A stretch of 21,222 nucleotides of DNA from positions 1-21,222 of the IMG/VR virus record IMGVR_UViG_3300044825_002823. The stretch is one strand, 5' to 3'. Each line of letters starts with the position of its first letter. Position 1 is the stretch's first letter. Source of the DNA: a virus. The notes under the pieces were generated by a model. It made no database searches. It was not told the DNA's origin and was given only the letters and a program-made list of their open reading frames with translations. Position numbers and translations under genes: made by a program. Shown piece after piece: positions 4,695 through 21,222 of the stretch.

Positions 4695-5564
4695 ATGGCA
4701 CGACACCCCAATCCCACCGCCGAGGCCGTGGACATCGAGATCAACGCCACCGACTTGCAGCAGGACGTGCGCGCCGCCAACGAGCTGGCTTCGCTGGTGT
4801 TGGCCCAGCAGGCCGGCGCCGTCACCCTGGCGCGTGAGCTGGGCTACGAAGGCGCGCTGACCGTCGGTGCGCTGGAGGACGAGATCCGCTTCTACCAGCG
4901 CCGCAGCGTCGAGGCGCTGCTGGAGGCGGGCAAGCGGCTGCTGTTGCTCCAAGAGGTTACTCAGCGAGGTGAATTCGATCAACGCGTAGAGATGTTGGGC
5001 TTCTCGCGCCGTAGTGCCTATCGTTTCATGCAGGCCGCGAGCAAGGTCGCGAAAAGTGCCAATTTGGCACTGTTGAGTACCCAAGTCAAAAACTCCAGCG
5101 CCTTCCTGGAGCTGATCACCCACGATGACGACGTGATCGAAGGGGTTTCCCAGCTCGACGACATCGACCGCCTGAGCGCGAGCCAGCTGCGCGCCAAGGT
5201 GCGCGAGATGAAGGCCGAGGTGGCAGCCAAGGAGCAGCGCCTGGAGGTGGTGAGCCAGCAACGGGACGCCGCCGAAGAAAAGGCCGCGCGCATTGCCGTG
5301 ATGCCGCCGGATCAGCAGATCGCTGACCTCAAAAAGAAGGCGGTCGCCATCGCCGCCGATGCCGAGGGCGCCATCTTGGGTGGCCTGCGCCAGGCGCTGA
5401 TCGCCTTGCAGGCCGACGGCACCGACCATGGTGTCTTCATGGCCGGCCTGGTGGGCCAGGTACAGGCACGGCTCTCGGCCTTGCGCCAAGAGTTCAACCT
5501 GCCTGACGTGAGCAACGCGGCCGATGCCGAGCTTGCCAGCGAAGTGGCGCAGTGGGCCAACTGA
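4695..5564 (+). CDS. DUF3102-like early protein with C-terminal coiled coil
   Basis: A 289-residue protein. Residues about 60-120 (DEIRFYQRRSVEALLEAGKR, then a GFSRRSAYRFMQAASKV block) fit the DUF3102-like pattern of phage and plasmid proteins in which a helical region precedes a helix-turn-helix-like segment. Residues about 165-215 (RAKVREMKAEVAAKEQRLEV and on) are heptad-rich and likely a coiled coil. The molecular role is not known to me; a DNA-binding or partition-like accessory to early replication is plausible. The ATG at 4695 follows GAAAGGA at a normal distance. The stretch 4940-5100 has lower GC (50-58% in sampled lines) than its flanks and contains a 17-bp palindrome at 5055-5071, hinting at a recombination patch inside the gene. 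The transposase start follows 19 bases after the stop. Confidence 0.78.
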   Translation: MARHPNPTAEAVDIEINATDLQQDVRAANELASLVLAQQAGAVTLARELGYEGALTVGALEDEIRFYQRRSVEALLEAGKRLLLLQEVTQRGEFDQRVEMLGFSRRSAYRFMQAASKVAKSANLALLSTQVKNSSAFLELITHDDDVIEGVSQLDDIDRLSASQLRAKVREMKAEVAAKEQRLEVVSQQRDAAEEKAARIAVMPPDQQIADLKKKAVAIAADAEGAILGGLRQALIALQADGTDHGVFMAGLVGQVQARLSALRQEFNLPDVSNAADAELASEVAQWAN

Positions 5565-5583
5565 TCAACTTGGTGCCGCCGAC

Positions 5584-7368
5584 ATGCCGCTCAACCCCGT
5601 GCAAATCCAACGTCTGGTGCAGATCGCGCAGGCCGCTGCCACCGCTCCCAGCGGTGGCAAGCAAGCCGTCTATGACGATGCCTGCCGGGAGCTGTGCGTG
5701 AGCCGCGCGACGCTGCACCGCTACCTGAAACAGGTTGCCATGAAACCCGAACGCAAGCAGCGCAGCGATGCCGGCAAGGTGTCGCTGACGCGTGACGAGG
5801 CCATCGCCATCAGCGCCATGCTGATGAGCAGCCACCGCAAGACCGCCAAGCGCCTGATGTCCATCGGCCAGGCCGTGGAGGTGATGCGCGCCAACGGCGA
5901 AGTGCGCGCCGAGCGCACCGACCCGGTGACCGGCGAGGTGCGGCCCTTGAGCGACAGCGCAATTGCCAGCGCGCTGCGCGCCTATGGCATGCACCCCGAT
6001 CAGCTCAACCGCCCCGAACCGGCGGTCGAGCTCAAGAGCCTGCACCCGAACCACGTCTGGCAGATCGACGCCAGTCTGTGCGTTCTGTACTACCTCAACA
6101 CCCGCACCAAGACCGAAGCCGGCCTGCAGGTGATGGAGCGCGAGCGGTTCTACAAGAACAAGCCCGCGAACCTCAAGCGCATCGAGTCCGACCGCGTCTG
6201 GTCCTACGAGGTGACGGACCACTACAGCGGTACGGTGTTCGTCCACTACGTGCTGGGCGCCGAGAGCGGGGCCAACCTGGCCGAGAGCTTCAGCGCCGCG
6301 ATCCAGAAGCGGGACGCCGACCCCTTCCATGGCGTGCCCTTGATCCTGATGATGGACATGGGCAGCGCCAACACCAGCGGGTTGTTCGCCAACCTGGCGC
6401 GCAGGCTGCAGGTCAAGCTGATCGCTCACGCGCCGGGCAACGCGCGCGCCACCGGCCAGGTGGAGAAGGCGCGCGACCTGATCGAGCGCAGCTTCGAGGC
6501 CGGCCTGCGCCTGCAGCCGGTGGGCAGCCTGGACGAGCTCAATTCCCGGGCGCAGCGCTGGGCACGCTGGTTCAATGCCAACAAGGTCCACAGCCGGCAC
6601 GGCAAGACCCGCTACGACCAGTGGCTCACGATCACCGCCGAGCAGCTGCGCATTGCCCCGCCGCCGGCCGTGTGCCAGGAACTGCTGACGCACCACCCCG
6701 AATCGCGCTTGGTGAGCGACACGCTGACCGTGAGCTTCAAGGGCCGCGAGTACGACGTGCGCCATGTGCCCGGCGTGATGGTGGGCGAGAAACTGGCGAT
6801 CGCCCTGAACCCGTACAACCTGGACAGCGCCGTGGTGGTGGACACCGATGCCGATGGCAAGGAAGTCCTGCACACCATCCCGGTGGTGCTGCGCGACGAA
6901 GGCGGCTTCCGCGAGGAAGGGGCGAACGTCATCGGCGAGGACTGGGCGCGGCCGGCCGACACGGTGCTCGAAGGCAACCGGCGCGAGGTCGAGCGCTTCG
7001 CGATGGATGCTGCCACCGATGCCGAGGCAGAAGCCGCGCGCAAGGCCAAGGCCGTGCCGTTTGGCGGCCGCATCGACGCGCTCAAGGTGATCGACCAGAC
7101 GCCCGAGCGCACCTTCATCCCGAAGCGCGGCACCGATCTGGAGCCCACCGCCACCACCAGTCAGACGCCTCTGCCGGCGCGCGTGCTGACGCTGTTCGAA
7201 GCGGCCAAGGCCCTGGTAGCCATGGGCGTGACCATGGATGCCGCCAAGAACGCACAGGTGCGTGGCTGGTACCCGAATGGCGTGCCCGAGGAAGAGCTGG
7301 ATGCGCTGCGCGACCGTCTGACGGCTCGCGCCGGCCTGCGCGCGGTCGCTGGTGGGAGGGCCGCATGA
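5584..7368 (+). CDS. DDE transposase A, Mu A / BcepMu-like (rve core)
   Basis: This 594-residue transposase should bind the phage ends, cleave them and carry out strand transfer for integration and replicative transposition. An N-terminal helix-turn-helix lies at about 31-50 (DDACRELCVSRATLHRYLKQ). The catalytic core shows D162 in HVWQIDASL, D258 in LMMDMGSANTSG, and E294 in NARATGQVEKARD; the last two are separated by 35 residues, the classic D,D35E spacing. A beta-barrel-like region follows (FKGREYDVRHVPGVMVGEKL) and then a charged C-terminal part that may contact the B ATPase. I chose ATG 5584 because homologous proteins begin near MPLNPVQIQ. A longer in-frame start at 5524 would overlap the previous gene by 41 bases and has no better ribosome site. 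The stop overlaps the B start (ATGA). All catalytic residues are intact. Confidence 0.93.
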   Translation: MPLNPVQIQRLVQIAQAAATAPSGGKQAVYDDACRELCVSRATLHRYLKQVAMKPERKQRSDAGKVSLTRDEAIAISAMLMSSHRKTAKRLMSIGQAVEVMRANGEVRAERTDPVTGEVRPLSDSAIASALRAYGMHPDQLNRPEPAVELKSLHPNHVWQIDASLCVLYYLNTRTKTEAGLQVMERERFYKNKPANLKRIESDRVWSYEVTDHYSGTVFVHYVLGAESGANLAESFSAAIQKRDADPFHGVPLILMMDMGSANTSGLFANLARRLQVKLIAHAPGNARATGQVEKARDLIERSFEAGLRLQPVGSLDELNSRAQRWARWFNANKVHSRHGKTRYDQWLTITAEQLRIAPPPAVCQELLTHHPESRLVSDTLTVSFKGREYDVRHVPGVMVGEKLAIALNPYNLDSAVVVDTDADGKEVLHTIPVVLRDEGGFREEGANVIGEDWARPADTVLEGNRREVERFAMDAATDAEAEAARKAKAVPFGGRIDALKVIDQTPERTFIPKRGTDLEPTATTSQTPLPARVLTLFEAAKALVAMGVTMDAAKNAQVRGWYPNGVPEEELDALRDRLTARAGLRAVAGGRAA

Positions 7369-11627: not shown

Positions 11628-12773
11628 ATGACGCCAACACCGCTCCACATCTTCAAGCCTGGCCGGCACACGGCCATGTCGGGCGCCACGCTGAAGTTCA
11701 GCGAGGCCGTCCTCAAGGCTGCGGCCCAAGCCTACGATCCGGCCCGGCACGAGGCCCCGCTGGTCGTGGGCCATCCCCGCCACGATCTGCCCGCCTATGG
11801 CTGGGTGCAGTCCCTGCAGTACAGCGACGGCGCTGACGGCCATGAGCCCGGCCTGTACGCCTTGCCCGCACAGGTGAACCCCGACTTCGCCGACATGGTG
11901 GCGGCCGGGGCATTCAAGAAGATCTCGGCCAGTTTCTATTCCCCCGACGCGCCGAACAACCCGGCGCCGGGCCAGTACTACCTGCGCCATGTCGGCTTCC
12001 TGGGCGCGCAGGCGCCGGCCGTCAAGGGCCTGCAGCCACCGAAGATCGTCAACTACAGCGACGCCGAGGCCGGCGTGCTGACGTTCGGCGAATGGGATGA
12101 CGTGGACAACGCCAGCCTGTGGCGGGGTCTGCGCGACTGGATCATCGGCAAGTTCGGCCAGGCCGAGGCCGACACGGTCATCCCTGGCTACAAGGTGCAG
12201 AGCCTGGAACAAGGCGCACAGGACGAGCTGCGCGAGGTGCAGGCCGAAGCGGCCGCTGCCGACCCGACTGTCGCCAGTCCGGCCACTCCCGCATTCGCCG
12301 ATCCCGCATCCCCACCACCGGAGCCTTCCGTGACCCCCGAACAGAAAGCCGCTCTCGAAGCGGAGAACGCCCGCCTGCGCGCCGAACTGGCCCGCCAGCG
12401 CCAGACCACCCTGCACCAGGAGCACGTCGCCTTTTGCGATGGATTGGTCAGCCAGGGCTTCGCGCCGGCGTGGCGCGATTTCAGCGTCGCCACGCTCGAC
12501 CGCTTCGCTGCCGAGCCGCTGGAGTTCGGCGAGGGCGACGCGCGCAAACCGATGCTCGACACCTTCAAGGACTTCCTCAAGAGCCTGCCGCCCACCGTGC
12601 CCCTGGGCGAACAGATCACCTCGGGGCGAGCCGCCGAAGCGGTCAATTTCTCGGACCCCGAGTCGATCGCGGCGGCGGCCCTGGCCTACCAGGCGCAAGC
12701 CGAGCAGGCTGGTCGCCCCGTGCCCTATGCCCACGCGGTCGCCCACGTCGCCAGCACCCGCCAATCCACCTGA
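11628..12773 (+). CDS. Mu I-like prohead protease with C-terminal scaffold domain
   Basis: A 381-residue capsid maturation protease fused to a scaffold, like the Mu I protein. The N-terminal half holds EAPLVVGHPRHDLPAYGWVQ (H49 a candidate catalytic His) and FKKISASFYSP (S100 or S102 candidate nucleophile), then YYLRHVGFLGAQAPAVKGL, the typical order of phage prohead proteases. After a Pro-rich linker (about 212-233), residues 235-260 form a charged helix (TPEQKAALEAENARLRAELA) and the rest is scaffold-like. The ATG at 11628 has GGAGG just upstream (11622-11626). In Mu the scaffold Z is made from an internal start in the same gene, and a good internal start is present here too (separate entry). 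Terminase and portal genes do not precede it. Confidence 0.87.
   Translation: MTPTPLHIFKPGRHTAMSGATLKFSEAVLKAAAQAYDPARHEAPLVVGHPRHDLPAYGWVQSLQYSDGADGHEPGLYALPAQVNPDFADMVAAGAFKKISASFYSPDAPNNPAPGQYYLRHVGFLGAQAPAVKGLQPPKIVNYSDAEAGVLTFGEWDDVDNASLWRGLRDWIIGKFGQAEADTVIPGYKVQSLEQGAQDELREVQAEAAAADPTVASPATPAFADPASPPPEPSVTPEQKAALEAENARLRAELARQRQTTLHQEHVAFCDGLVSQGFAPAWRDFSVATLDRFAAEPLEFGEGDARKPMLDTFKDFLKSLPPTVPLGEQITSGRAAEAVNFSDPESIAAAALAYQAQAEQAGRPVPYAHAVAHVASTRQST
12330..12773 (+). CDS. Probable internal-start scaffold protein (Mu Z-like) nested in the protease gene
   Basis: An in-frame GTG at 12330 has GGAG at 12320-12323 with a 6-base spacer. It opens 147 residues beginning MTPEQKAALEAENARLRAEL, exactly at the boundary between the Pro-rich linker and the coiled-coil region. 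Mu and lambda (C/Nu3) both make their scaffold from such an internal start. The product would be the scaffold without the protease. The signal is good, but only protein data would prove it. Confidence 0.55.
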   Translation: MTPEQKAALEAENARLRAELARQRQTTLHQEHVAFCDGLVSQGFAPAWRDFSVATLDRFAAEPLEFGEGDARKPMLDTFKDFLKSLPPTVPLGEQITSGRAAEAVNFSDPESIAAAALAYQAQAEQAGRPVPYAHAVAHVASTRQST

Positions 12774-13197: not shown

Positions 13198-14148
13198 GTG
13201 AGCACCACCGCTTTTCCCATCAATCCCGAGCTGACCGCCGTCGCGATCGGCTACAAGAACCGCGACATCGACCTGATCGCCGATCAGGTGCTGCCGCGCA
13301 TCACCACCGCGAAGAAGTTCGCCTACACCAGCTACAACAAGGCCGACGGCTACACCGTGCCGGCCACCCGCGTGGGCCGCAAGAGCGAGCCGACCATGGT
13401 CGACTTCGGCGGCACGCTGGTCAACGATGAATGCGTGGACTGGGGTCTGGACGATCTGGTGCCCAACGACGAGGTCGAGGCATGGAACGCGATGCCCAAG
13501 CCCGCAACTGCGGTCGGCCCGCTGGCCAAGAGCACCAGTCTGCTGACCGGCTTGGTGATGCTGGACCGCGAGATCCGCGTCGCCAACACCGTGTTCTCCA
13601 ACGCGACCTACCCGATCGGCAACAAGGTCACGCTCTCGGGCACCAGCCAGTGGAGCGATTTCAGCAACTCGAATCCGCTCGATGCCTTGCTCGCGGCGAT
13701 GGATGTGCCGCTGTTCCGGCCCAACACGGTCGTGCTGGGGCAGGCGGTTTGGACCAAGCTGCGTCAGCATCCCCGGGTGATCCAGGCGGCGAACGCCAGC
13801 GCGCAGACCGGCGGCGCCATCACGCGTCAGCAGCTGGCCGACCTGCTCGAGGTGCGTGACGTGCTGATCGGTACGGGCTTCTCCAACACCGCCCGCAAGG
13901 GCCAGACCCCGACGTTCAGCCGGGTCTGGGGCAAGCACTGCGCGCTGCTGTATGTGGGCACCGACCTGGCCAATGCGGACCAACCCTGCTTCGGCTTCAC
14001 GGCCCAGTTCGGCACCCGCATCGCCGGCGTGCTCGACGCGCCGCGCCAGGGCCTGCGTGGCGGGCAAATCGTTCGCACCGGCGAATCGGTCAAGGAGGTG
14101 ATCTCGGCCAGCGATGCCGGTTACTTCTTCGAAAACGTCATCGCCTGA
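13198..14148 (+). CDS. Major capsid protein
   Basis: A 316-residue protein with features of HK97-fold capsid proteins from siphoviral prophages. The N-terminal arm includes NRDIDLIADQVLPRITTAKK. A central region has VDWGLDDLVPNDEVEAW and DREIRVANTVFSNATYP. The C-terminal beta-rich part has FSRVWGKHCALLYVGTDLAN and ends SASDAGYFFENVIA. The start is GTG 13198 with AAGGA upstream, giving the expected N-terminus, MSTTAFPINPEL. It follows the protease-scaffold and DUF2190 genes and precedes small neck genes, the normal head-gene order. It is not close to Mu gpT in what I can see, which suggests the head genes come from a non-Mu siphovirus lineage. Confidence 0.88.
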   Translation: MSTTAFPINPELTAVAIGYKNRDIDLIADQVLPRITTAKKFAYTSYNKADGYTVPATRVGRKSEPTMVDFGGTLVNDECVDWGLDDLVPNDEVEAWNAMPKPATAVGPLAKSTSLLTGLVMLDREIRVANTVFSNATYPIGNKVTLSGTSQWSDFSNSNPLDALLAAMDVPLFRPNTVVLGQAVWTKLRQHPRVIQAANASAQTGGAITRQQLADLLEVRDVLIGTGFSNTARKGQTPTFSRVWGKHCALLYVGTDLANADQPCFGFTAQFGTRIAGVLDAPRQGLRGGQIVRTGESVKEVISASDAGYFFENVIA

Positions 14149-15384: not shown

Positions 15385-16347
15385 ATGCCCCGTTACGTTG
15401 CCAATACCGCGCTCATCTTCAAGATCGAGACCACCCCGGGTATCGATGCGGTACCGACCGGCACGGCCGATGCCGTGCTGTTGACCGACATCACCGTCAC
15501 GCCGCTCGACGCCAACAACATCGACCGCCAGTTCATCCGGCCGTACTTCGGCGGCTTCAGCAAGCTGGTCGGCCCCGCCAGCGTCAAGCTCAGCTTCAGC
15601 GTCGAGCTGGGTGGCTCGGGCACGGCCGCCACGGCACCGCAGTGGGGTGATCTGCTGCTCGCCTGCGCGCACGCCGAGGCCCTGCTGACCACACCCAGCC
15701 GGGTCGAGTACACGCCGGTCAGCTCCAGCCTCAAGACCGCGACGATCTACTACTACGACGACGGCGTGATGCACAAGCTGCTGGGCTGCATGGGCAACGT
15801 CAAGCTGTCGGCTCCGGTCGGCGATCGGCCCAAGTTGTCGTTCGACTTCATCGGGCTCGACGGCGGCATCAGCACCGCTGCATTGCCGACGGTGGCCCTG
15901 ACGGCCTGGAACGCACCGCCGGTGGTGGCCAAGGCCAACGTGGTCGATGTCACGCTCGGCTGCACCTATGCCACCGGCGCCCTGACGGGTGGCACGACCT
16001 ACAGCAGCGCGGGCCTGGAAATCGACTGGGGCAACGACGTGAAGTTCACGCCGCTGCTCGGCAGCGAGAGCGTGGACATCACCAACCGCAACCTGTCGGG
16101 CAAGCTCAAGTTGGATTTGACCGCAGCGCAGGAGGTGGCGATGTATGCCGCGATCAAGTCCAACACGCTGCAGGGCCTGGGCTTCACGCTCGGCACGGTC
16201 TCCGGCAACAAGATGCTGATCCATGCGCCCCAGGTGCAGCTGGTCAACCCGACGAAAGAGGACGTCAACGGCCGGCGCCTGATCGGCTTCGACCTCGAAA
16301 TCGCTCCGCTGTCGGGCAACGACGACATCCGCATCGTCTGCGTCTGA
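15385..16347 (+). CDS. Phage tail tube protein (siphovirus-type)
   Basis: A 320-residue, beta-rich protein starting MPRYVANTALIFKIETTPGI, with the long beta-strand content of major tail proteins: SKLVGPASVKLSFSVELGGS, a central VMHKLLGCMGNVKLSAPV, and a C-terminal VNGRRLIGFDLEIAPLSGND. It should polymerise into the non-contractile tail tube. The ATG at 15385 follows GCGGAG. Directly after it come two tail assembly chaperones and a tape measure, and no sheath gene is present, so the tail is siphoviral rather than the contractile tail of Mu. A GC hairpin lies downstream. Confidence 0.83.
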   Translation: MPRYVANTALIFKIETTPGIDAVPTGTADAVLLTDITVTPLDANNIDRQFIRPYFGGFSKLVGPASVKLSFSVELGGSGTAATAPQWGDLLLACAHAEALLTTPSRVEYTPVSSSLKTATIYYYDDGVMHKLLGCMGNVKLSAPVGDRPKLSFDFIGLDGGISTAALPTVALTAWNAPPVVAKANVVDVTLGCTYATGALTGGTTYSSAGLEIDWGNDVKFTPLLGSESVDITNRNLSGKLKLDLTAAQEVAMYAAIKSNTLQGLGFTLGTVSGNKMLIHAPQVQLVNPTKEDVNGRRLIGFDLEIAPLSGNDDIRIVCV

Positions 16348-16405: not shown

Positions 16406-16828
16406 ATGACCTTCATCCTCGCTCCCCAGACCAAGTTCACCGCGCCGGTTCACTTCCGTGTTCCCGCCGACGGCGGCAAGACGCAGAAGATCGCCTTCTC
16501 GGTGGTGTTCAAGCTGCTGTCGGCCGATGAGTTGGCGGATCTGCAAAAACGCGCCCGCGACTCCAATCTCAAGCAGCTTGCACTTATCAAGCAGCGCGAG
16601 CAGCAGTCGGACCTGGAGCACGATCCGTTGCCGGACCCAGAATTCAGCAACCGCGACCTGATCGACGAGGTGTTGATCGGCTTCGGCGATGACCTGCTCG
16701 ACGTCGATCGCCAGCCGCTCGCCTTCACGACCGAGAACCTGGAACGGCTGCTGAGCGTGCATGGCGCTGAGGCCGCAATCATCAAGAGCTTCTATGGGCA
16801 CCACATCGAGGCGCCACAAAAAAACTGA
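16406..16828 (+). CDS. Tail assembly chaperone (lambda G-like), zero-frame product
   Basis: A 140-residue, acidic helical protein beginning MTFILAPQTKFTAPVHFRVP. It has KIAFSVVFKLLSADELADLQ and a C-terminal IIKSFYGHHIEAPQKN. The place between tail tube and tape measure, together with the overlapping second frame, is that of the G gene of lambda-type phages; such proteins guide assembly of tape measure and tube and are not in the final virion. The ATG at 16406 has only a weak site (TGGAAAA). Its end has a slippery A AAA AAC just before TGA, so some ribosomes should make a longer fusion (separate entry). Confidence 0.82.
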   Translation: MTFILAPQTKFTAPVHFRVPADGGKTQKIAFSVVFKLLSADELADLQKRARDSNLKQLALIKQREQQSDLEHDPLPDPEFSNRDLIDEVLIGFGDDLLDVDRQPLAFTTENLERLLSVHGAEAAIIKSFYGHHIEAPQKN

Positions 16829-16880
16829 TGGACATCGTCCGCTTCCTTATGCGTCCTCGGCGCGAGGAGGTGGACGATGT
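16819..16880 (+). promoter_or_regulatory. Probable programmed -1 frameshift signal in the tail chaperone gene
   Basis: The heptamer A AAA AAC (16819-16825) is in the correct phase, CAA AAA AAC, immediately before the TGA stop. A GAGG (16808-16811) lies 7 bases upstream, a Shine-Dalgarno-like stimulator position. After a 6-base spacer, ACATCGTCC (16832-16840) pairs perfectly with GGACGATGT (16872-16880), enclosing an inner hairpin TCCTCG/CGAGGA (16854-16859, 16863-16868). A -1 slip leads straight into the open frame of the next gene and gives a fusion of 277 residues. Confidence 0.75.
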
Positions 16881-17238
16881 GACCCGACAGGAAAAGATTG
16901 GTGCGGCGCTGGCGTGTTTCGGGCTGCGCCTGGCCGACGAAGAGCATCAGGACGACGGGCCGGAGGCACCGCCAGCGCTTGAAGTCCATCCGGACAACCG
17001 GCGCGCGTGCGACCTGTTCCTGGCCGCGATGCACCACTTCCAGCTGGTACTCGGTGGCATGGGCGGCGTGCATTGGGCGGCGGTACGGCCGAGCGACGTG
17101 CGCCAGTTGATGGACTGGCTGCGGGTGCCTCGGCGCGATCAGCCCGATCTGTGGCGGCGCTACGGCGTGATGGAACAGGAGGCGCTGCGCCTCCTCAACG
17201 AGCGCGCGGCCGAGGCTGCACGCGCGGCTCAAGGGTAA
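16828..17238 (+). CDS. Tail assembly chaperone second frame (lambda T part of GT; DUF1799-like)
   Basis: 136 residues, from ATG 16828 (overlapping the upstream TGA) or, more likely, translated as the -1 frameshift extension of the 16406 gene. It contains RQEKIGAALACFGLRLADEE, then HPDNRRACDLFLAAMHHFQL and a C-terminal acidic-basic helix, RYGVMEQEALRLLNERAAEA. This resembles the helical extension that follows the G protein in siphoviruses. The frame offset is -1, as required. The fusion is expected to bridge tape measure and tail tube. The stop is 13 bases before the tape-measure start. Confidence 0.8.
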   Translation: MDIVRFLMRPRREEVDDVTRQEKIGAALACFGLRLADEEHQDDGPEAPPALEVHPDNRRACDLFLAAMHHFQLVLGGMGGVHWAAVRPSDVRQLMDWLRVPRRDQPDLWRRYGVMEQEALRLLNERAAEAARAAQG

Positions 17239-17251
17239 TGGGAGTGACAGG

Positions 17252-20200
17252 ATGTCCGAGGTAGCGATCACGATCACGGCGGATGGCAAGGCCGCCGTGC
17301 TGGCCGCCAAGCAAGCCGGCGATGCCATACAGTCACTCGGAAACCAGGCCGAGCAGGCAGCCTCCCATCTGCAGGCTGCCGGAAAAGCCGGGAGCGGCGT
17401 GGCGGCATCCGGTGCGGCCGCCAAGCAGGCCAGCGAGGCGATGCAGTCGCTCGGCAACCAGGCCGAGCAGGCGGCTGCGCATCTGCAGGCCGCAGGCAAG
17501 GCGGGCAGCAGCCTGACGACTTCCGGCGCGGCCGCCAAGCAGGCCAGCGAAGCGATGCAGTCACTCGGCAACCAAGCCGGGCATGCAGCAGCCCAGGCCC
17601 AGGCGGCGGGCAAGGCCACCGCCGACATGGCGAATCGGGCCGGTATGTCGGCCAAGGAAATGGCTGCTGCCATGCGCGGCATCCCGGCGCAGTTCACCGA
17701 CATCGTCACCAGCCTGGCATCCGGCCAGGCGCCGCTCACAGTGCTGCTGCAGCAGGGCGGCCAGCTCAAGGACCAGTTCCACGGCATCGTCCCGGCGGCC
17801 AAGGCCGTCGGCGAATATGTCGTTGGCCTGATCAACCCGTTCACCCTGGCGGGCGCCGCCGCCGCCGCGATGGGCTACGCCTATTTCCAGGGCCGGAAGG
17901 AGTCGGCCCTGTTCAACGAGGCCCTGCTCACGACCGGCAACATTACAGGCACAACCACCGGCCAGCTCAACGAGATGGCCAAGGCACTGGGGCAAGGCGA
18001 ATTCACGCGCGGCGCCGCTGCGGCCGCGCTGGCTCAGATGGCCGGCACGGGCGCAATCGCGATGCAAAGCCTGCAGGGCCTGGGCAAGACCGCGCTGGAG
18101 ATGCAGCGCTATGTCGGTGTTCCGGTGGAGGAGACAGCCAAGGTCTTCAAGGCCCTGGGTGATGAGCCTGTCAAGGCATCGCTCCAGCTCAACGACAGCC
18201 TGCATTACCTGACGCGCACGCAGTACGAGCAGATCAAGTCGCTGGAGGAGCACAGCAGGAAGACCGAGGCAGCAGCTCTGGCGCAGCAGGCCTGGTCGGA
18301 TGCGCTCAAGCCGCAGATTGATTCGGCCCGCGCGAATCTGGGGTACCTGGAAACGGCCTGGTCTGGTGTCGCGAAGGGTGCCAAGGAAGCCTGGGATTCC
18401 ATGCTGAACGTGGGGCGCCAGGTCAACCTGGAGGATCGGCTGGCGGGTGCCAAGCAACTTCTGGCCGATTTCGAGAGGACTTCTTCCGGTAAGCGAACGA
18501 CCGAACAGGTTGCGCTCATGGCAAAGGCTGGCGGCGTCGAGGGGCTGAAGGGGCAGATCGCCGGCCTGGAGGAGCTGATCGATACCCAGAAAAAGGCGGC
18601 CCAGGCCGACGCCGAGCGCCAGAAGGTCCAGGAGGCGGGCATCAAGTGGTCGCAAAAAGTTGAGCAACGCCTCTCCAATGAGCTGCGGCTCAAGAAGGAG
18701 ATCAGCGATATCGAGGCCCTGGGTAAGGCGGCCAACATCGATCCCAAGAAGATCGCCGACCTCGTGGCGCTGACGCGCCAGGACTACGACAAGGCGGTGG
18801 CGTCCGCCAATGCCGACGCCCTGATCACGGCAGCCAAGGGCAACGCCAAGCGCTACGGCGACTACTACAAGCAGGAGTTGGACGCCTTCCGGCTCTCGAC
18901 GGCGGACTACCTGGAGCAGGTCCGGGCGCTGGACACGCAGGCCCTGCAGGTCGAGCGCCGCGCCGTGGCGGGCGAGAAGCCAGTCACGGCCGAGGACCGG
19001 ATACGCCAGAAATCCCGCCTGTCCGAACTCGATGCCCAGATCCGCGAGGTCGGGGAGAAATACAACCGCGCGGTCGAGGACAATGACCTCAAGAACCAGC
19101 AGGTGCTTGAGCGTCTGGGGCAAGCGGCGGGTAAGTCGCTCGATCCCATGACGCAGGCCGGGCAGACCTTCGCGAGCCAGTATGGCGCCATCATGCGCCG
19201 TGCCGCCACCGACGGCAACGAGGCCATCCTGGAGGCGGGCCGGGCAGTCTGGGATTCGATGACCGACAAGGTCCAGTTCGACAGCGCCAAGAAGCTATAC
19301 GAGGACCTGTTCGCCAAGCTGACGACAGAGCTGGAAGCCGTGCGCCAGGCGGCCGACCTGGACGGTGGCCTGTTCGCCCACCTGGATGCCGCCGGCAAGG
19401 CTCAGGAGATCAAGAAGCGCCTGCTGCCCTCGATCGACGAGGCCACGGACCGAATGCGCCAGTTCGCGGGCACCGACCCGGTCAGCGACAAGGCCGTGGT
19501 CGAGGCCGAGGCCAACGTCAAGAAACTGACGACCCAGGCTGATCCCTATTTCAAGAAGATGGCCGATGGCCTGGAGACCTCGCTGACCGACGCGCTGATG
19601 CGGGGTTTCGAGAGCGGCAAGGGCTTCGGGAAAAACCTGGTCGATACGGTCAAGAACCTGTTCAAAACCCTGGTGCTGCGGCCGGTGGTCCAGGCGGTGA
19701 TCAGTCCGGTGTCCGGGGCTCTGACCGGAGCCCTCGGGCTGGGCGGAACTTCCGCTGCGATCGCAGGCCAATCGGGCGGATCGGCGGCTGGAAGCGCCTT
19801 GAGCCTAGCCGGCGCTGCCAGCAGTGCCTACAGCCTGCTGACCAACGGCATCAGCGCGTCGATCCAATCAGGCTTTGCCAAGCTGGCATCCAACGGCTTC
19901 GGCGAAAGCCTGGGCCTGGCGCAACCGACCGGTTACACGACCGGCTCGGGCGTGCAGTACGGACTCAACGAGACGGGCTCGTCCATCGGATCAGCCCTGG
20001 GTGTCGCCGGCAACGCGCTGGCCGGCTACGGTCTGAGCAAAGTGCTGTCCGGCGGCTACCAGCTCGGTGGCGGTGGCCTCATGAACGCCGCCACGCTGGC
20101 GGCCAGCGCCTATTTCGGGCCAATCGCGGGCGCCGTGACCGGCCTGCTTAACCGCGCCTTTGGCAGCAAGCTGGCCGACAGCGGGCTGCAGGGTTCCTTC

Positions 20201-21222
20201 GGCGGCGCGGCCGGCTTCACGGGCAGCAACTTCACGGACTATCAGGGCGGCTGGCTCCGCTCCGACCGGACCGACACCAGCGCGCTCGATCCGGCGCTGC
20301 AATCCGGCCTGGCGCAGCAGTTCAAGGCGCTGCAGGTCTCGACCGGTCTGATGGCGACCACGCTGGGCCTGTCGAGCGACACGGTGCGCGACTTCACGGC
20401 CAGCATCCGACTCAGCTTCCAGGGGCTGACCGAGGCGCAGATCCAGACCAAGCTGACGGAACAGTTCACTTCGATCTCCGAGCAAATGGCCGCCGCGACG
20501 CTGGCGACCACCGACTACACGCACATGGGCGAGACGGCGGCGCAGACGTTGACCCGCCTGTCGGGTGCCCTGAGCACCGTGAATGGCAGCTTCGACACGC
20601 TGGGCCTGACGCTCTACCAGGCCAGCTTGAAGGGAGCCGACATGGCCAGCCAGCTGGCCGACCTGTTCGGCGGCCTCGACAACTTCAAGACCGCCACGGC
20701 CGCGTACTACCAGGCCATCTACACCGACGAGGAGCGGCTGGCCAAGACCCGCGAGCAGCTGACCACGCAGTTCTCGACCGCGTTTGGCATGGCCGTGCCA
20801 AGCACGTTGGAGGCGTACAAGGCGTTGGTCAGTGCGCAGGATCTGACGACCGAGCTGGGCCGCAAGCAGTACGCGACCCTCATGCAGCTGGCCCCGGCGT
20901 TTGCCGAGGTCACGAAGGCTGCCACGACCGCCGCCGACGCCGCGCAACAGCAGGCGACCGCCACGCTCGATGCCCTGCGGTCCAGCGGCAAGGGAATCAG
21001 CGACTGGCTGGCGAAGATCCAGGGCAGCACCGGGTCGTCAGCTGTATCGCTGGCCAGCGCGCGTGGCCAGTACCTGCAGACCCTGAACCTGGCCCGGGGC
21101 AACGACCAGACCGCGCTGGGGTCGATCACCGGCATGGCAGACAGCTACCTGCAAGCGGCCAAGGCCCAGGCGACCAGCGGGGCGCAGTATGCCGCCATCG
21201 TGGCCCAGGTCAGCGCCGAGAT
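17252..21222 (+). CDS. Tape measure protein (TMP_2-like), 3' end cut by the window
   Basis: At least 1,323 residues are visible, with no stop. The protein sets tail length and is packed in the tail lumen. The N-terminus MSEVAITITADGKAAVLAAK is typical. After the 38-residue tandem repeats comes the family block AMRGIPAQFTDIVTSLASGQ and PLTVLLQQGGQLKDQFHGIV, then a hydrophobic segment, VVGLINPFTLAGAAAAAMGY (about 190-209). The middle is long and helical, with Lys/Glu-rich coiled coils; a Gly/Ala/Ser-rich region with possible membrane-active helices follows (about 835-970). The ATG at 17252 has GGGAG 7 bases upstream. The lambda H family resemblance supports a siphoviral tail. Confidence 0.93.
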   Translation, partial: MSEVAITITADGKAAVLAAKQAGDAIQSLGNQAEQAASHLQAAGKAGSGVAASGAAAKQASEAMQSLGNQAEQAAAHLQAAGKAGSSLTTSGAAAKQASEAMQSLGNQAGHAAAQAQAAGKATADMANRAGMSAKEMAAAMRGIPAQFTDIVTSLASGQAPLTVLLQQGGQLKDQFHGIVPAAKAVGEYVVGLINPFTLAGAAAAAMGYAYFQGRKESALFNEALLTTGNITGTTTGQLNEMAKALGQGEFTRGAAAAALAQMAGTGAIAMQSLQGLGKTALEMQRYVGVPVEETAKVFKALGDEPVKASLQLNDSLHYLTRTQYEQIKSLEEHSRKTEAAALAQQAWSDALKPQIDSARANLGYLETAWSGVAKGAKEAWDSMLNVGRQVNLEDRLAGAKQLLADFERTSSGKRTTEQVALMAKAGGVEGLKGQIAGLEELIDTQKKAAQADAERQKVQEAGIKWSQKVEQRLSNELRLKKEISDIEALGKAANIDPKKIADLVALTRQDYDKAVASANADALITAAKGNAKRYGDYYKQELDAFRLSTADYLEQVRALDTQALQVERRAVAGEKPVTAEDRIRQKSRLSELDAQIREVGEKYNRAVEDNDLKNQQVLERLGQAAGKSLDPMTQAGQTFASQYGAIMRRAATDGNEAILEAGRAVWDSMTDKVQFDSAKKLYEDLFAKLTTELEAVRQAADLDGGLFAHLDAAGKAQEIKKRLLPSIDEATDRMRQFAGTDPVSDKAVVEAEANVKKLTTQADPYFKKMADGLETSLTDALMRGFESGKGFGKNLVDTVKNLFKTLVLRPVVQAVISPVSGALTGALGLGGTSAAIAGQSGGSAAGSALSLAGAASSAYSLLTNGISASIQSGFAKLASNGFGESLGLAQPTGYTTGSGVQYGLNETGSSIGSALGVAGNALAGYGLSKVLSGGYQLGGGGLMNAATLAASAYFGPIAGAVTGLLNRAFGSKLADSGLQGSFGGAAGFTGSNFTDYQGGWLRSDRTDTSALDPALQSGLAQQFKALQVSTGLMATTLGLSSDTVRDFTASIRLSFQGLTEAQIQTKLTEQFTSISEQMAAATLATTDYTHMGETAAQTLTRLSGALSTVNGSFDTLGLTLYQASLKGADMASQLADLFGGLDNFKTATAAYYQAIYTDEERLAKTREQLTTQFSTAFGMAVPSTLEAYKALVSAQDLTTELGRKQYATLMQLAPAFAEVTKAATTAADAAQQQATATLDALRSSGKGISDWLAKIQGSTGSSAVSLASARGQYLQTLNLARGNDQTALGSITGMADSYLQAAKAQATSGAQYAAIVAQVSAE
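17303..17644 (+). repeat. Three tandem 114-bp (38-residue) repeats in the tape measure
   Basis: Units begin at 17303, 17417 and 17531. The protein unit is AAKQAxxAxQSLGNQAEQAA followed by xHLQAAGKAGSxxxxSGA. Copies 1 and 2 are near-identical in most of the unit; copy 3 diverges after LGNQAG. Each could add about 5-6 nm of helix, so unit gain or loss would change tail length. Confidence 0.8.

Follow-up and report, generated by a model that had tools for sequence, protein, structure and literature searches.

In the tail module of a Mu-like transposable phage, we found a very probable signal for lambda G/GT-like programmed −1 ribosomal frameshifting, which would join a tail assembly chaperone to a DUF1799 domain in a fusion of 277 aa. 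The slippery heptamer of this signal ends in C and is directly followed by the stop codon of the chaperone gene, and this arrangement is kept in a large and diverse group of tailed phages. The conservation of the stop next to the slip site, which exceeds by far what the encoded protein would produce by itself, suggests that the stop codon is a selected part of the signal.

Results

Tail module and gene order

The window, by which we mean the whole stretch of 21,222 bases that was analyzed, is a virus record that belongs to a Mu-like transposable phage and includes genes for a long tail. On the plus strand, the tail tube gene (15385–16347; PF18906, E 2.5e-28) is followed by the chaperone gene (PF08748), by a DUF1799 domain in the −1 frame, and by the gene of a tape measure protein (17252–21220; PF06791, E 6.4e-71) that runs off the record. 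The chaperone is encoded by a zero-frame ORF of 140 aa (16406–16828, including the TGA) and was recognized as a gpG-like protein by the Pfam profile Phage_TAC_4 (PF08748; 25.3 bits, cut-off 21.1) and by phrog_569 (E 1.2e-12). The gpT-like extension in the −1 frame comprises 137 codons from CTG (16825–17238, including its stop); it matched phrog_680 (E 4.9e-10) and, with a score of 20.1 bits that is below the cut-off of 26, DUF1799 (PF08809, E 7.5e-4). The first ORF is thus a tail assembly chaperone gene between the tube and tape measure genes, as is characteristic for the lambda G/GT class, and homology together with gene order points to a role of the chaperone and of its fusion in tail assembly.

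Elsewhere in the window, a Mu-like transposase (5524–7368), a head maturation protease (11628–12773), and a major head protein (13198–14148) are encoded, and the transposable phage carries a siphovirus-type tail module here, in contrast to the contractile one in Mu. Near its 5′ end, the tape measure gene contains a tandem repeat (17302–17617; unit of 114 bases, 2.8 copies, 81% matches), which has no indels and therefore stays in frame, with repeated segments AAKQASEAMQSLGNQAEQAA...AGKAG. Neither tRNAs nor Rfam matches were found in the window.

Slip site and −1 frame

The 3′ end of the chaperone gene reads CCA CAA AAA AAC TGA. The in-phase heptamer A_AAA_AAC (16819–16825, plus strand) lies inside a run of seven A and adjoins the zero-frame TGA (16826–16828) without any codon in between. 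The earlier note on this DNA had recognized the heptamer before the TGA but had not remarked on their contact, and this position relative to the stop is common to most of the relatives described below. The −1 frame is free of stop codons up to position 17235 and ends with the stop at 17236–17238, and the second domain can thus be reached from the slip site without a stop, again as in the lambda class. The 140 aa of the chaperone and the 137 codons of the extension add up to the predicted TAC_4–DUF1799 fusion of 277 aa, the length that had been claimed; the 136 further residues that had been counted for the −1 frame are correct if one starts at the internal ATG at 16828 instead of the CTG at 16825. 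In the ORFs of at least 90 aa in the window, 29 in-phase XXXYYYZ heptamers occur among 16,647 slots, and the A_AAA_AAC at 16819 is the only one of these with a plus-strand stop no more than 30 nt away.

We infer the following course for the slippage, including the movements of the tRNAs, the frequency, and the part played by the stop. Most ribosomes would read AAA AAC and terminate at the TGA, which results in the 140-aa chaperone. A minority would slip back by one base, with tRNALys and tRNAAsn moving on A_AAA_AAC to AAA AAA, and would then go on at CTG to synthesize the 277-aa chaperone–DUF1799 fusion. A hairpin that begins 6 nt downstream would delay the ribosome while the heptamer occupies the P and A sites. 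We favor slippage while AAA occupies the P site and AAC the A site, because the spacing of 6 nt fits this position, whereas a ribosome with the stop codon in its A site would have only 3 nt left. The stop may assist the weak C-ending heptamer, either by slowing the ribosomes, which could be delayed or queued there, or by keeping non-shifting ribosomes from melting the hairpin. Going by lambda, each tail would require few copies of the fusion, and a low rate of its synthesis would be fitting for such a chaperone.

Downstream hairpin and upstream GAGG in the window

Folding predicts a strong stimulatory hairpin whose 5′ arm (16832–16848) starts 6 nt past the heptamer, a distance within the expected range of about 5–8 nt, and whose 3′ arm is formed by positions 16864–16880 of the same strand. 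The earlier note had described a perfect 9-bp stem at this place; its start and nine Watson–Crick pairs from 16832 were confirmed, but the stem is longer, with 17 contiguous pairs including G-U pairs. The second, enclosed hairpin that had been noticed is also predicted, as a 5-bp apical stem (16851–16855 with 16859–16863; the whole apical hairpin 16851–16863) that tops the main stem after a 2-nt bulge. The minimum free energy of the structure is −36.4 kcal/mol, which corresponds to z = −5.4 relative to dinucleotide shuffles and to z = −3.1 relative to synonymous-codon shuffles that keep the −1 protein. Six outermost inverted repeats with 9 bp or more and a short span occur in the 21 kb, and the stem is one of them.

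A GAGG at 16808–16811 (plus strand) is indeed found 7 nt before the heptamer and might act as an internal Shine–Dalgarno stimulator. It is not established as an element of the signal in the window, because 78% of the synonymous shuffles of the chaperone gene do equally well, and we regard it as a weakly supported candidate. Group-wide, there is a modest Shine–Dalgarno-like bias in the region 4–13 nt upstream of the heptamer (p 2e-7 versus synonymous shuffles). The earlier description as a textbook site with all three elements thus holds for the heptamer, the hairpin, and the lambda G/GT-like reading; for the GAGG it is weakly supported, and the word textbook does not do justice to the heptamer's ending in C and its contact with the stop, both of which are unusual.

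Conservation of the junction in relatives

Few or no relatives were retrieved when the chaperone or the DUF1799 protein itself served as the query. As the chaperone was too divergent for such searches, the tail tube protein was used to fetch relatives from annotated phages and viral contigs by tail tube alignment, and genomes were additionally searched with Pfam and PHROG profiles. Phages related by their tape measure protein were not used as relatives on that ground, their tail modules not being alignable by BLAST; when three of them were searched with the TAC_4 profile, the same adjoining heptamer was found there as well. Loci with a different or disrupted module after the tail tube (L059, L061, L062, and L063) were left out of the motif counts. 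In L062 and L063, an unrelated ORF of 146 aa stands right after the tube gene in the chaperone's place, and the module looks rearranged.

The first set consisted of 111 sites, or 88 after removal of chaperones with at least 70% identity, and was partly chosen by the motif. An in-phase heptamer adjoins the zero-frame stop in 104 of these 111 sites (81 of the 88 nonredundant ones), and these adjoining heptamers are only AAAAAAC or GGGAAAC. Because of the partial motif selection, the survey was redone with chaperone and DUF1799 profiles from which the junction residues had been removed. This gave 163 distinct viral loci; DUF1799 lies in the −1 frame in every one, and the heptamer adjoins the chaperone stop in 153 of them (about 94%), with AAAAAAC in 121 and GGGAAAC in 32 cases. 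An in-phase slippery heptamer in the overlap is thus kept in relatives, as it is in the lambda G/GT class, and 25 of 26 homologous −1 products matched DUF1799. The first −1 residue after the heptamer is Leu in each of the 86 nonredundant loci, and the −1 protein is conserved from this first codon onward (L-x-E-A-A-R-x-W). The hosts of named members are alpha- and gammaproteobacteria and cyanobacteria.

The assignment to tail chaperone frameshifting that had been proposed for the window is therefore borne out by gene order, by Pfam matches, and by a heptamer, frame, and hairpin that are kept in more than 160 relatives. Relatives that lack both heptamer and stem, which had been named as the observation that would speak against the signal, were looked for, and the group at large turned out to keep the heptamer and, in most cases, the hairpin.

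Selection on the hairpin

When the folding energies of the relatives were corrected for GC content, a single sharp minimum appeared at the 3′ side of the heptamer (z about −12.6 in 50-nt windows). It is confined to windows that start between −6 and +6 nt of the heptamer end, and the background level is reached again by +12. Measured against synonymous recodings of the −1 protein, the hairpins of the stop-abutting loci (154, counting the window) have a mean z of −1.69 (Stouffer −21, a pooled significance that is overstated because the loci are related). In 22 loci that share one helix register, 91.8% of the cells pair and compensatory changes are found in 7 of 10 hairpin pairs, whereas pairing reached only 28–47% in a control in which the partner strand was slid. 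The position of the loop varies between groups, and the window, with its long stem, uses a separate register. In the synonymous-shuffle test, some stop-abutting relatives, for example L018, L019, L034, and L037, give no hairpin signal. As judged from these sequence comparisons, the hairpin is under selection across the group.

The adjoining stop codon

The letters of the adjoining stop come from the −1 Leu codon and the base after it. From background CTN Leu codons, an adjoining stop would be expected in 12.5% of cases, but it occurs in 81 of the 86 nonredundant loci. The codon CTA is used at the −1 Leu in 26 of the 86 loci, as compared to 4% of background Leu codons. By a quick tree computed from the fusion proteins, the type of the stop changed at least 21 times with the adjacency kept, and the adjacency was lost five times. 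These data argue for selection on the stop itself, and a conserved stop next to the slip site is also the hallmark of the stop-assisted frameshifting type known from plant viruses.

The few exceptions fall into several kinds. Five viral loci have G-ending heptamers, and none of these adjoins the stop: in L155, L161, L164, and L172, which apparently represent mostly one lineage, AAAAAAG is located 15 nt upstream of the stop, and in L296, GGGAAAG is found 6 nt before it. A hairpin signal is absent in these five loci (mean z −0.07), and it is likewise absent in four C-ending loci with a separated stop (mean z +0.23). The association of the heptamer ending with stop adjacency (p 1.4e-7) ignores kinship, and the G-ending heptamers may have only two origins; kinship is also ignored in the comparison of the hairpin between adjacent and non-adjacent loci (p 4e-4), and both p-values are not independent, since non-adjacent loci are few and partly belong to one lineage. 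In L080, AAAAAAC is followed by TGG, the chaperone runs on for 25 codons, and there is no hairpin signal; a single natural base change seems to have removed the adjoining stop here. L029, where TTTTTTC is 60 nt away from the stop, and L096, where GAGAAAC adjoins it, are outside the rule. In the four AAAAAAG loci, the −1 protein still has N-L at the usual junction position.

Discussion

The split of the two reading frames could in principle have other causes than ribosomal slippage. The window is a single virus record with a run of seven A, and an assembly or sequencing error that removed or added a base in this run could have split one gene into two. This idea is refuted by the relatives, as each of the 163 distinct loci has the identical −1 split at this place, as do sequenced phage isolates, and the probability of such an error is negligible. 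The same run might permit transcriptional slippage, in which RNA polymerase adds an A and some mRNAs encode the fusion, and one extra A would indeed give the right frame. Efficient transcriptional slippage usually needs longer runs, however, and only six A are present in 50 of the 86 nonredundant relatives, while 17 have GGGAAAC and therefore no run; moreover, the conserved RNA hairpin and its fixed spacing would be left unexplained, which makes this alternative highly improbable. Termination–reinitiation would produce a separate DUF1799 protein from the ATG that overlaps the chaperone stop in the window (TGATG, 16826–16830). Such a pair of genes should have a conserved start codon near the first stop, but an ATG within the first −1 codons occurs in only 3 of the 86 nonredundant loci, the window being one of them. 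The nearest start codon of any kind has a median distance of 22 codons from the junction, and in 25 of the 86 loci there is none before codon 30, although conservation of the −1 protein sets in at its very start. In addition, the nearest Shine–Dalgarno-like GAGG is 16 nt away from the ATG, and the conserved heptamer would have no explanation. We therefore consider reinitiation very unlikely, and as general explanations, both reinitiation and transcriptional slippage fail by the sequence evidence.

The frameshift could also be real with the adjoining stop as a passive element, which either provides a clean end of the short protein or results from selection for a C-terminal Lys-Asn or Gly-Asn. 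This reading has merit, as a zero-frame tail encoded over constrained −1 codons might be harmful, and as a clear hairpin is missing in some of the stop-abutting relatives. However, tail chaperone shifts in other phages have on average 26–36 nt from the slip site to the stop (PMC10885494), and thus a clean end is not generally required; the G-ending heptamers moreover lack the adjacency, and the exchange of the stop for a sense codon in PEMV reduces frameshifting more than 3-fold (PMC4737148). We see about equal reason to accept and to doubt a passive stop. It is possible, and we suggest this only tentatively as we lean slightly toward doubt, that the stop is instead a required third element in this large and diverse group of tailed phages: together with the AAC heptamer and the hairpin, it would compensate for poor A-site slippage, it would have been lost along with the hairpin in the G-ending lineages, and it would be a bacterial counterpart of the stop-assisted frameshifting in some plant viruses.

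In its kind, the signal of the window is ordinary, as −1 frameshifting in tail chaperone genes is known. The lambda heptamer is GGGAAAG. As in lambda G/GT, the phage would produce a short chaperone and a −1 fusion, the genes follow the order tube, chaperone, tape measure, and the heptamer is near the end of the first ORF; unlike in lambda, the heptamer of the window ends in C, adjoins the stop, and is followed by a hairpin. In lambda, the fusion recruits tube protein to the tape measure protein but does not become part of the virion (PMC5009743), and the frameshift in tail genes forms a conserved class (Xu et al., 2004, as cited in PMC5009743). What sets the present group apart is the combination of heptamer and stop. 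In E. coli, heptamers ending in AAC are inefficient, and according to the rules of Sharma et al. (2014), the second codon should be all purine or all pyrimidine, with AAG as the best one (PMC4066793). The window and nearly all relatives have AAC and thus do not possess an efficient E. coli heptamer. These rules predict weak heptamers, and yet the group keeps AAC with an adjoining stop, mostly accompanied by the hairpin. That A_AAA_AAC can function in bacteria at all was demonstrated with IS1 insA-insB′, where the A6C motif yields about 2% frameshifting (PMC12428005). The heptamer is identical to that of the window, but the insA stop is located 15 nt further on, and the product is a transposase, an unrelated protein.

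Single cases in which the slip site abuts the stop are known from phages. For gp18/gp19 of Burkholderia phage KL1, a shift has been predicted at GGGAAAC right before TGA, with a possible stem-loop (PMC3483164); this heptamer adjoins the stop as in the window. The gp49/gp50 genes of Rhodobacter phage RcapMu are homologous to those of the window, and GGGAAAC adjoins TGA also there; this shift is likewise predicted, and the homologous gene is annotated as ‘potential -1 frameshift’ in the RcapMu record. KL1 and RcapMu are single predictions, and a group-wide rule or selection on the stop was not described there. No paper was found in a literature search on DUF1799 and frameshifting, with many subscription papers, including Xu et al. 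(2004), being beyond this search. As far as the searched literature goes, the group-wide rule is apparently undescribed, but it may be reported elsewhere.

A likeness with regard to the stop is seen in plant viruses of the tombusvirid and luteovirid groups. In BYDV and RCNMV, the stop follows directly after the slip site, and in PEMV 3 nt after it (PMC4737148); as in the window, the stop is next to or near the slip site at the base of a stem. In contrast to the phages, these are RNA viruses that use eukaryotic ribosomes and long-range RNA pairing, and they are unrelated by descent. An effect of the BYDV stop was seen in a reporter, whereas full-length RNA did not show it. If the stop also helps in the phages, stop-assisted −1 slippage on bacterial ribosomes would become directly testable with natural variants, and L155, L161, L164, and L172 provide a natural comparison in which the slip site is apart from the stop and the hairpin signal is missing. 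For annotation, the arrangement offers a simple rule, as an in-phase AAAAAAC or GGGAAAC that ends at a stop marks genes that are now split in two. DUF1799 proteins are at present annotated from arbitrary later start codons, and in RcapMu and others, the annotated DUF1799 start is indeed located downstream of the junction.
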